Origin: a virus
Virus record (IMG/VR): IMGVR_UViG_3300045974_000760
Span: 1-64,000 of that record
Length of the DNA stretch: 64,000 nucleotides
Reading direction: 5' to 3' (one strand)
Position numbers and translations under genes: made by a program. Positions 59,134 to 61,020 of this stretch are shown piece by piece; position 1 is the stretch's first letter; each line of letters starts with the position of its first letter. The notes under the pieces were generated by a model. That model did no database searches. It was not told the origin of the DNA and saw nothing but the letters and a program-made list of their open reading frames with translations.

Positions 59134-61020
59134 ATGACGAAGGAGGAGCTGAAGTTTGGAGCTCCGCCAGCCAAAGCCGGGGCTCAATCCCCGGCTTTGA
59201 CGTATATGGCGGACAAGGCCTCACGCGCTAGCCCGAGCGCACGTACCGAACGTGAGCTGCAGATGTGGCACACGTGGAATGACAGCGGGCGAAAGCCCGA
59301 ACACCTCGAGCCCCTGCTCAAAGCCTACGAGCCCATCTTCTCTCAGAAGGTGCGGCAGTGGTCGGCTGGTGCAGCGGGCGTGAATCCCATGTTCATGCGC
59401 GCGCAGGTCGAGAAGCACTTCATCGACGCCGTGGGGAAGTTCGACCCCAGCCGTGGCTATGCGCTTGCGACTCACGTCGACAAGCCGATGAACAAGGCAC
59501 AGAGGGCGCGCAACACGGTGCAAAACGCGGCCTACGTCTCCGAGGAGACAGCCCGCACTATCGCGCCCATCCAGAACGCCACCGCCGAGCTGCACGCAGA
59601 GCTCGGCCGAATGCCTACCCCGCAAGAGATTGCTACCAGGTCGGGGCTTGGTCTTCGCGTCATCAAGCGACATCAGCTCGAGATTCGCAAAGACGTCGCT
59701 GCCTCGGCGTACGAGAACGACCCCACCGAGAACCCGATGAATCGGGCTCACGATATCGCTCCCCTACTTCGGGAGCAGTTCCAGCAGCCCGGCTTCCAGC
59801 CTCACGTACTACACGTGTTTGACCACACGTTCGGGCTGAATGGAGCTCCGACAGACCTGAGCGGCGGGCAGCTCGCCAAGAAGCTCGGCGTCTCACCCTC
59901 GGCCATCTCTCAAGCGAAGAGCCTCATTCTCGCTGAGACAAAGAAGTACCTGTTATACCCACCCGCAGTACATCGAGGCCCGTCACTCATAGCGAGAGGC
60001 GGGCCTCTCTCATTTCCAAAGGCACAACAAGACATGGCTCACGAACTCGCAATCGACTCCCTCGGCGCGCAAATGTTGTACGCAGGTGAAACGCCTTGGC
60101 ATGGACTGGGCACGAAGATCGAGAAGCACGTCACCAGTCGCGAAGCGTTGGCAATCTGCCGCGCGGACTACGCAGTGAAGTGCGGGCAGCTCTTCACCTC
60201 GAAGTCGGTGCCCGTCAACGCACAGTACATCTACAGGGAGGACGCAGAGGGGGTGCAGACCATCCTGGGGCACCACGTTGGGATGGACTACACGCCGCTG
60301 CAGAACGTGGATGCATTCACGTGGTTTGACCCGTTCCTGGAGAGCGGGATGGCCGCTATCGAAGCGGCGGGCGTACTGCGTGATGGCGCACGTGTGTGGG
60401 TACTGGCTCGCATCGAAGGTGACCCGCTTGAGATCTTGCCGGGGGATGTGGTGGTGAAGCGCTTGCTGCTGAGCAACGACCACAGCGGCATGCAGGCGGC
60501 TCGAGTGGGGCTGACCCCGATTCGCACCATTTGTGCAAACACGCTTGCGATGGCGTACGCGGACAAGAGGTCCCAGCTCTTGCGTGTCAAGCACACGCGT
60601 AACATCAAGGACGCACTCGCGGTGGTGCGGGAGACCATTGACGTGGTGAACAACGAGTTCAAGGCCACGGCGGAGCAGTACCGCCGTCTCACCACGATGG
60701 GTGTGGTGGAGAAGGACATCGAGAAGTACGTGAAGCTGGTGTTCGCTCCCGGCACCGCGCCCGATGCACCGGATGAGCAGCTGGTGGGCAGCTCAGCGGG
60801 CAAGCGTGTGTGGGAGCAGATCAAGCCGCTGCTCGAGGTGGGGCGAGGTGCCTCCATCCCCGGAGTACGCGGTACGATGTGGTCTGCATTCAACGCAGTG
60901 GTTGAGTACGTTGACCACAGCCGTGGACGTAGCCGTGAGTCGCGCCTGGAGTCGCAGTGGTTCAAGGATGGCGCGGCCCTGACCTCCCGCGCGCTCAAGT
61001 TGGCGCTGCAGGCTGCCTGA
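59134..61020 (+). CDS. Sigma-70-like domain fused to a DUF932-like domain
   Basis: 628 aa, AAAGGAA 7-8 nt before the ATG. Residues 95-115 (FIDAVGKFDPSRGYALATHV) match sigma region 2, residues 150-180 (AELHAELGRMPTPQEIATRSG) sigma region 3, and 246-265 (QLAKKLGVSPSAISQAKSLI) a region 4 helix-turn-helix. From Met301 the sequence changes to WHGLGTKIEKHVTSREAL ... YTPLQNVDAFTWFDP, then CANTL, typical of DUF932/TIGR03299 phage-plasmid proteins of unknown function. The junction (272-300) is Pro/Arg-rich and contains a terminator-like hairpin. It could direct RNA polymerase to phage promoters. Confidence 0.7.
   Translation: MTKEELKFGAPPAKAGAQSPALTYMADKASRASPSARTERELQMWHTWNDSGRKPEHLEPLLKAYEPIFSQKVRQWSAGAAGVNPMFMRAQVEKHFIDAVGKFDPSRGYALATHVDKPMNKAQRARNTVQNAAYVSEETARTIAPIQNATAELHAELGRMPTPQEIATRSGLGLRVIKRHQLEIRKDVAASAYENDPTENPMNRAHDIAPLLREQFQQPGFQPHVLHVFDHTFGLNGAPTDLSGGQLAKKLGVSPSAISQAKSLILAETKKYLLYPPAVHRGPSLIARGGPLSFPKAQQDMAHELAIDSLGAQMLYAGETPWHGLGTKIEKHVTSREALAICRADYAVKCGQLFTSKSVPVNAQYIYREDAEGVQTILGHHVGMDYTPLQNVDAFTWFDPFLESGMAAIEAAGVLRDGARVWVLARIEGDPLEILPGDVVVKRLLLSNDHSGMQAARVGLTPIRTICANTLAMAYADKRSQLLRVKHTRNIKDALAVVRETIDVVNNEFKATAEQYRRLTTMGVVEKDIEKYVKLVFAPGTAPDAPDEQLVGSSAGKRVWEQIKPLLEVGRGASIPGVRGTMWSAFNAVVEYVDHSRGRSRESRLESQWFKDGAALTSRALKLALQAA
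59975..60007 (+). terminator. Hairpin inside the sigma/DUF932 frame
   Basis: GAGGCCCG and CGGGCCTC, 8 bp perfect with a 17-nt loop, followed by TCTCATTT. It falls exactly between the two domains, as an old gene boundary would. Confidence 0.6.
60034..61020 (+). other. Possible internal gene: DUF932-like protein
   Basis: An ATG at 60034 (MAHELAIDSLG) with AAAGG about 11 nt upstream could start the DUF932 half alone (328 aa), a normal length for this family. Listed as an alternative to the fusion. Confidence 0.5.

Follow-up and report, generated by a model that had tools for sequence, protein, structure and literature searches.

Sigma-like gene at the locus

The window analyzed here is a stretch of 64,000 nucleotides that comprises positions 1 to 64,000 of the 143,216-bp IMG/VR virus record IMGVR_UViG_3300045974_000760. 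Near its right end lies a long open reading frame (ORF) that joins a sigma-70-like part to a DUF932 part, with a terminator-like hairpin between them and with tail-cluster genes and copies of a short promoter-like element upstream (Table 1). The sigma gene is present in a single copy in the record.

Table 1 Features of the sigma locus, promoter-like sites and complete polymerase ORFs in relatives (window positions unless a contig is named).
Feature	Position	Strand	Basis
ORF, 628 aa	59134-61020	+	ORF list
Sigma-70-family protein, 274 residues, regions 2, 3 and 4	59134-59955	+	Profiles, model, stop in relatives
Sigma region 2, residues 36-130	59239-59523	+	VIA-align and alignment
Altered core-binding segment (residues ~87-92) and, separately, FDPSRG...THV, both in region 2	59239-59523	+	Alignment
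Sigma region 3, residues 137-186	59542-59691	+	Pfam Sigma70_r3; helices in model
Sigma region 4-like helix-turn-helix, residues 205-274	59746-59955	+	PHROG 351, Sigma70_r4 in relative L122, alignment
Strong hairpin between sigma and DUF932 parts, terminator-like, poor U tail	59975-60007	+	-25 kcal/mol, z -3.73
DUF932/TIGR03299 ORF, in frame with sigma ORF	60034-61020	+	Own ATG at 60034
Two tail-cluster genes (50826, 52286), homologs upstream of sigma gene in relatives	50826-55489	+	
Promoter-like GGGATAAG, TGAAATA upstream, ahead of 58108 gene and sigma gene	58099-58106	+	
Promoter-like GGAATAAG (44888 site of the initial annotation)	44896-44903	-	
Promoter-like GGTATAAG (45000 site of the initial annotation)	45002-45009	+	
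Promoter-like GGGATAAG	42178-42185	-	
Promoter-like GGCATAAG	43224-43231	-	
Promoter-like GGGATAAG	43904-43911	-	
Promoter-like GGTATAAG	44469-44476	-	
Promoter-like GGGATAAG	45567-45574	+	
Promoter-like GGGATAAG	46213-46220	+	
Complete beta-beta' fusion RNA polymerase ORF	L131 7207-13593	-	
Complete beta-beta' fusion RNA polymerase ORF	L147 812-7213	+	

The initial annotation had recognized sigma-like regions 2 and 3 and a region 4 helix-turn-helix in the 59134 gene and had placed it in no standard phage sigma family. The regions, represented by FDPSRGYALATHV, ELGRMPTPQEIATRSG and a C-terminal helix-turn-helix, were borne out by profile searches. In NCBIfam, the FliA/WhiG sigma model matched at E = 2.3e-5, and the 19 other models reaching E <= 1 were without exception sigma models. 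PDB sigma factor sequences matched at E = 0.0018. PHROG 351, ‘RNA polymerase sigma factor’, matched up to residue 273 (E = 1e-5), so that a phage sigma family does take the protein, if weakly. Pfam Sigma70_r3 scored 24.7 bits (E = 2.5e-5), slightly below its cut-off of 25.3, and was above cut-off in four of six relatives; L121 gave 8e-11 and L122 1.1e-8, the latter with an additional Sigma70_r4 match at 3.8e-6, all above cut-offs. The region 4 profile PF04545 passed its cut-off in one of the six relatives and gave no Pfam match in the window protein. Whole-record Pfam searches with Sigma70_r2 and Sigma70_r4 returned nothing, missing even the 59134 gene itself, which points to strong divergence of this sigma.

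Structure prediction agreed with these assignments. A first model built from a seven-row alignment was mediocre (pLDDT 62); Foldseek nevertheless retrieved 111 PDB chains at E <= 0.001 with it, and nearly all of the best 50 of these 111 were sigma chains. The model from a 14-row alignment reached a mean pLDDT of 78.5 and a pTM of 0.42. Comparison with sigma-70 structures, the check suggested in the initial annotation, superposed residues 36-130 on sigma domain 2 with an rmsd of 2.1-2.2 Å over 92-93 residues (VIA-align). Longer matches extended to residue 274 with an rmsd of 18-20 Å; given these values and the low pTM, the domain arrangement is not predicted. Alignment A4 contained identical sigma proteins once (G008 = G001, G010 = G009) and excluded L015 and L016 (fragments with the Arash-group gene), L009-L011 (same contigs as L012-L014), D69 and Arash. 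Membership in the sigma-70 family is decided by the fold and regions 2-4, whereas the core-binding motif DLIQEG, absent from some divergent sigmas, is no strict criterion. Residues ~36-274 thus almost certainly form a divergent sigma-70-family protein, which very probably acts in transcription initiation.

Gene boundary

The sigma part was originally taken to span the first 300 residues; it ends near residue 274 (59955). The sigma gene stop in the closest relatives (G004 and the identical pair G001 and G008) aligns with window residue 274, and in other relatives the gene ends within about ten residues of this position. Residues 275-300 are encoded by the hairpin and the leader of the DUF932 ORF. 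In L121 and L122, inspection by eye likewise showed hairpins, with better U runs, downstream of the sigma stop. The remainder of the ORF matches DUF932/TIGR03299 at E = 4e-59, and its ATG is preceded by a ribosome-binding-like AAAGG. A single 628-aa fusion protein is disfavored, because relatives carry the sigma part alone and because the DUF932 half has its own start signals and forms a separate ORF in the 595-kb phage LR756511. The long ORF is therefore probably two genes, and we read the separating stop as missing in this record by mutation or assembly error. The DUF932 half was found in none of 22 related records in a search run without a positive control. On the opposite strand, an endonuclease VII-like gene (60998-61696 (-); phrog_1035, E = 1e-35) adjoins the DUF932 ORF.

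Distribution and genomic place of the sigma family

First searches for close relatives with the window protein and with the D69 protein found none. Among 16 IMG/VR records chosen for their terminase similarity, nine had the sigma gene; further relatives comprised gp10 of Salmonella phage Arash, genes of Vibrio phages D69, D181 and D148, IMG/VR phages near Arash and a Desulfovibrio contig. Weaker tblastn relatives include cyanophage sigma genes. Within the Arash group, the gene evolves under purifying selection (dN/dS 0.065-0.136 in all ten pairs).

The gene is embedded in a tail/baseplate cluster not only in the window clade but also in Arash, in D69 and on the Desulfovibrio contig. Tail genes located upstream of the Arash-group sigma gene are matched by window genes 50826 and 52286, and in each of the seven clade genomes the homologs of these two genes are again found on the upstream side of the sigma gene. 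By our own reading of the translations, the Desulfovibrio sigma gene directly precedes baseplate-type genes; in the window clade, baseplate gene 116785 is far from the sigma gene. From the homologous upstream tail genes and the Desulfovibrio baseplate neighbors, we conclude that the tail-cluster position is kept across deep divergence. The window terminase large subunit ORF (1211-4306, 1031 aa), at the other end of the stretch, carries an intein-type insert (Intein_splicing and LAGLIDADG, residues 166-535).

A phage-encoded RNA polymerase in the relatives

All 21 records searched encode a bacterial-type beta-beta' RNA polymerase. These include all 14 with a sigma gene (nine clade records, four of the Arash group and the Desulfovibrio assembly), the other seven being clade records in which no sigma was detected. 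Arash and D69, outside this set, also encode the polymerase. Against the PDB, the phage enzyme matches beta at E = 7e-72 and beta' at E = 1e-47. Two clade genomes contain it as one ORF of 2128-2133 aa with Rpb2 and Rpb1 core Pfam domains, that is, as a beta-beta' fusion (Table 1). Arash divides it between two genes, gp206 (1525 aa; beta and N-terminal beta') and gp216 (606 aa; C-terminal beta').

The window's own record gave no Rpb1_5 match. This absence is expected, since the record starts about 1.2 kb upstream of terminase, whereas the polymerase gene of G004 and G001, which shares the strand of the terminase gene, is several kb upstream of it; the first two ORFs of the record match those directly before terminase in relatives. 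By this synteny, the window phage presumably has the polymerase too. A search for a single-subunit RNA polymerase gave no match in the window record and likewise none in control genomes. In the Desulfovibrio sp. An276 assembly (contigs C9 and C89; L232-L235, L019), sigma gene and polymerase lie on different contigs, possibly two halves of one phage or prophage.

A recurrent promoter-like element

The initial annotation had pointed to a compact promoter class in the same genome, with sites at 44888 and 45000. Both are copies of a GGnATAAG element, and the class recurs in sigma-bearing relatives. Its full form, GGnATAAG-N5-TG, is found in sigma-bearing phages including those of other hosts. A matrix grown from GGGATAAG identified about 20 strong sites in the window record, with a TGAA-like, A-rich stretch ~16 nt upstream and TG at +13/+14. 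If the A following the free position is set to -11, sigma-70 numbering would give G-14 G-13 n-12 A-11 T-10 A-9 A-8 G-7 and T-1 G+1; position -12 is free and -7 is G across phages of different hosts.

Motif counts covered the seven clade genomes and later G005 and G012, leaving out G003, G006-G008, G010 and G014-G016. Compared with order-3 Markov expectations (in brackets), GG.ATAAG was over-represented in six of the seven clade genomes, with 22 (1.2) copies in G000, 20 (1.6) in G001, 29 (4.0) in G004, 29 (0.6) in G013, 22 (1.4) in G009 and 15 (1.2) in G002, while G011 had five (2.6). Arash contains 31 copies of GGTATAAG (4.9 expected). D69, where GG.ATAAG is not enriched, has the form GTTATAAG (19 versus 7.3 expected), which also occurs ten times, with 1.0 expected, on the Desulfovibrio polymerase contig. 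Intergenic sites were enriched threefold or more over expectation in eight of nine genomes, and in eight of nine the sites lie upstream of same-strand genes (median 28-48 nt). Tested for gene-upstream occurrence against 140 permuted patterns, the motif took first place in five genomes (G000, G001, G004, G013 and Arash), second place in G009, fifth place in G002 and rank 28 in both G011 and D69. Position-blind counts over whole genomes, which coding sequence dominates, gave it lower ranks: 92 in D69, 122 in G011 and 10-47 in the remaining seven. In G005 (164 kb), where the motif ranked 4 of 140, and in G012, motif and polymerase are present and no sigma gene was detected; the G012 record ends at the expected sigma position. 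YerA41, an RNA polymerase-encoding phage with no clear family member, shows no enrichment (ten copies, 15.1 expected). The most strongly over-represented 8-mers in the window record, G001 and G004 include TTTCTTAG and TTAGCCCC, seen around 46882 in the window and in relatives; they look like terminator tails with promoters directly behind them.

Two other promoter types were considered. Host-type sigma-70 promoters matching at least 10 of 12 positions were absent from the window phage (0 versus 1.7 expected) and in moderate excess in Arash (19 versus 9.2), which probably still uses the host polymerase at some stage. T4-like late promoters were rejected, as TATAAATA has just one copy in the 143-kb window genome.

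The 21 sites listed for the window record leave the head-gene stretch before 42 kb empty: nine are found at 42-47 kb, a single one at 58 kb, ten among small genes at 65-111 kb, and the last at 140 kb. Late genes had been the suggested target, yet most sites precede small non-structural genes rather than head or tail operons. In Arash, the minus strand holds most of the sites, ahead of genes for nucleotide metabolism, tRNAs and small hypothetical proteins; on the plus strand, a site at 11588 is 304 nt upstream of the sigma gene gp10. In seven of nine genomes, the strand of the sigma gene carries a site no more than 2.2 kb upstream of it (1.4 expected), the 2.2-kb limit having been set after the distances were seen and the D69 and G011 sites looking weak. 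Such a placement points less to a pure late switch than to the activation of early or middle genes and of the sigma gene itself. Two predicted starts directly precede an in-frame ATG (45017 for site 45002, span 45002-45019; 46228 for site 46213, span 46213-46230), and the messages from these sites could thus be leaderless. Leaderless mRNAs were unconvincing genome-wide, as TTG/GTG overlaps the motif's own TG.

Sigma number and docking surface

To count sigma genes, we used a profile built from eight bacterial sigma proteins, with matches counted at E <= 1. Exactly one ORF matched in each of the seven clade genomes, always the family sigma gene, albeit at only E = 0.0036 in G011. Arash and D69 gave two ORFs each. 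The second Arash sigma, gp196 (L209 47657-48694 (+)), is more host-like and lies beside helicase genes; a homolog is present in D69 and in none of the seven window-clade genomes. This second sigma could read some of the GGnATAAG sites in Arash and D69.

The region 2.2 segment DLIQEG, by which bacterial sigmas bind core, is replaced in all 16 family rows and kept in all eight bacterial rows, which had been picked by this motif; gp196 has EDLIAAG at the position. On the polymerase side, the clamp coiled-coil segment is present and diverged (Arash DVNELYKHHMLVNGRMKRL versus DLNDLYRRVINRNNRLARL). Changes on both docking sides are expected of a dedicated sigma-polymerase pair, although they would not prove one. 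Because the relatives encode their own polymerase (21 of 21) and DLIQEG is replaced family-wide, the phage core appears the likelier partner, a reading to which we give fair confidence; the same observations speak against the earlier idea that the sigma switches host polymerase to late genes. T4 gp55 binds host polymerase despite weak region 2 similarity, so the lost motif is no proof of a phage partner.

Proposed function and alternatives

We propose that the 59134-59955 product would confer promoter specificity, as the sigma subunit, on a bacterial-type multisubunit RNA polymerase encoded by the phage. Region 2 of this sigma would dock on the clamp coiled-coil of the beta-beta' fusion polymerase, and the sigma would melt GG-n-A(-11)TAAG(-7) promoters, with initiation near the conserved TG at -1/+1; a weak A-rich element at -35, recognized by region 4, would assist in the window clade. 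These promoters would drive dozens of small, mostly non-structural transcription units and, given the class site upstream of the sigma gene, the factor would probably feed back on its own gene. That the window sigma reads GGnATAAG seems likely, and we lean, on balance, toward the whole chain from sigma through phage polymerase to promoter. Weighing against this chain are the lack of a polymerase gene in the window record, the second sigma of Arash and D69, the weak motif in G011, the low whole-genome ranks of the motif, the motif-bearing records G005 and G012 with no sigma gene detected, and the separate contigs of sigma and polymerase in Desulfovibrio An276. More tentatively, the virion may carry polymerase and sigma together and deliver them on injection as a ready-made holoenzyme, active on GGnATAAG promoters from the outset. 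We regard such packaging as possible rather than probable; it would explain both the sigma gene in the tail cluster and the sites before small non-structural genes.

Host core is the usual partner of phage sigmas, and a T4 gp55-like factor might appropriate it for phage promoters while the phage polymerase works separately with other factors. The cyanophage genes among the weaker relatives and the excess of host sigma-70-like promoters in Arash fit this scenario. We nevertheless consider it rather unlikely, as a polymerase is encoded by all 14 family records and by Arash and D69, the family has lost the host-docking motif that the second Arash sigma largely keeps (EDLIAAG), and the T4 late motif occurs only once in the window genome. 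A different role, as a tail or virion component or assembly factor that does not initiate transcription and leaves the promoters to another factor, would agree with the gene's location inside the tail/baseplate cluster in all four lineages named above. Tail location fits a packaged sigma equally, however, and the YerA41 sigma is reported in virions beside polymerase (PMC7354516). Regions 2, 3 and 4 are moreover kept under purifying selection, and no other sigma was detected in the seven clade genomes carrying the promoter class, which makes this role improbable.

The element itself might instead be an ordinary host promoter or a non-promoter signal for processing or replication, unrelated to the sigma gene. 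It resembles the sigma-70 -10 box and, in the window clade, a FliA site. This possibility is the least probable of those weighed: the motif recurs across hosts with a free -12 and G at -7, lies upstream of same-strand genes and lacks enrichment in YerA41, a phage of another enterobacterium. What remains preferred is the sigma subunit of a phage polymerase.

Comparison with known systems

T4 gp55 is a short phage late sigma. The window family differs from it and from cyanophage late sigmas in having no TATAAATA promoter set and in co-occurring with a phage RNA polymerase. Phages phiKZ and AR9 possess a non-virion RNA polymerase with gp68 or gp226 as promoter-specificity subunit, and the sections on gp226 state that it has no discernible sequence similarity to sigma (PMC7598289, PMC9209446), while phages of this kind are described as having no recognizable sigma at all (PMC7824862); the specificity factor of the window family, in contrast, is recognizably sigma-70 and the core is a beta-beta' fusion. 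Multisubunit RNA polymerase-encoding Caudovirales (mReC) were described from metagenomes with cellular-type beta and beta' (Weinheimer & Aylward 2020, PMC7481178). A term search of that paper's main text gave no hits for ‘sigma’ or ‘promoter’. Window relatives likewise have cellular-type beta/beta' (21 of 21), although the window record itself stops before the polymerase locus. The mReC capsids detected matched PF07068 (PMC7481178), whereas the window capsid protein (13067-14188) has no Pfam match at E <= 0.01 and matches the phrog_2522 major head protein.

For jumbo phages, the relevant passage of Iyer et al. distinguishes group 1, with RNA polymerase and no sigma, from group 2, with sigma and no RNA polymerase (PMC7824862), and the same division, into RNA polymerase without recognizable sigma versus sigma without RNA polymerase, is made in a passage of PMC7598289. 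The window lineage has both, together with a lineage-wide promoter class. The nearest precedent is YerA41, whose sigma factor is listed with late structural genes and whose RNA polymerase subunits and a sigma factor are reported as virion-associated by LC-MS/MS in the corresponding sections of PMC7354516; with sigma and polymerase subunits in one particle, the pairing is not wholly unprecedented. Its polymerase is split into several genes, in contrast to the fusion of the window clade. The only clear sigma-profile match there, YerA41_195c, is short and has no clear match to the window family (E = 0.017), and Pfam found no sigma domain in nine YerA41 structural proteins. With this E value and a genome lacking GGnATAAG enrichment, membership of the YerA41 sigma in the window family was judged unsupported.

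Our searches of the open-licence PMC literature turned up no description of the window sigma family or of the GGnATAAG class. What would be new is a recognizable phage sigma that genome context links to a phage polymerase and to a promoter shared across the lineage. If these parts cooperate, they would amount to a self-contained bacterial-style holoenzyme run by a virus and to an orthogonal polymerase-promoter pair; such a system would show sigma-core co-evolution outside cells and bear on the kinship of phage polymerases with and without sigma. If packaged, it would parallel the virion polymerases of N4 and phiKZ, with the difference that it depends on a sigma. The closest cultivated comparison is Salmonella phage Arash, in which the idea can be tested. 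Its gp10 (OQ632216; annotated ‘RNA polymerase sigma factor RpoS’) belongs to the same family and occupies the same tail-cluster place, and Arash shares RNA polymerase genes (gp206/gp216) and abundant GGTATAAG copies with the window clade, while differing in its standalone sigma gene, the second sigma gp196 and a separate gene for the C-terminal part of beta'.
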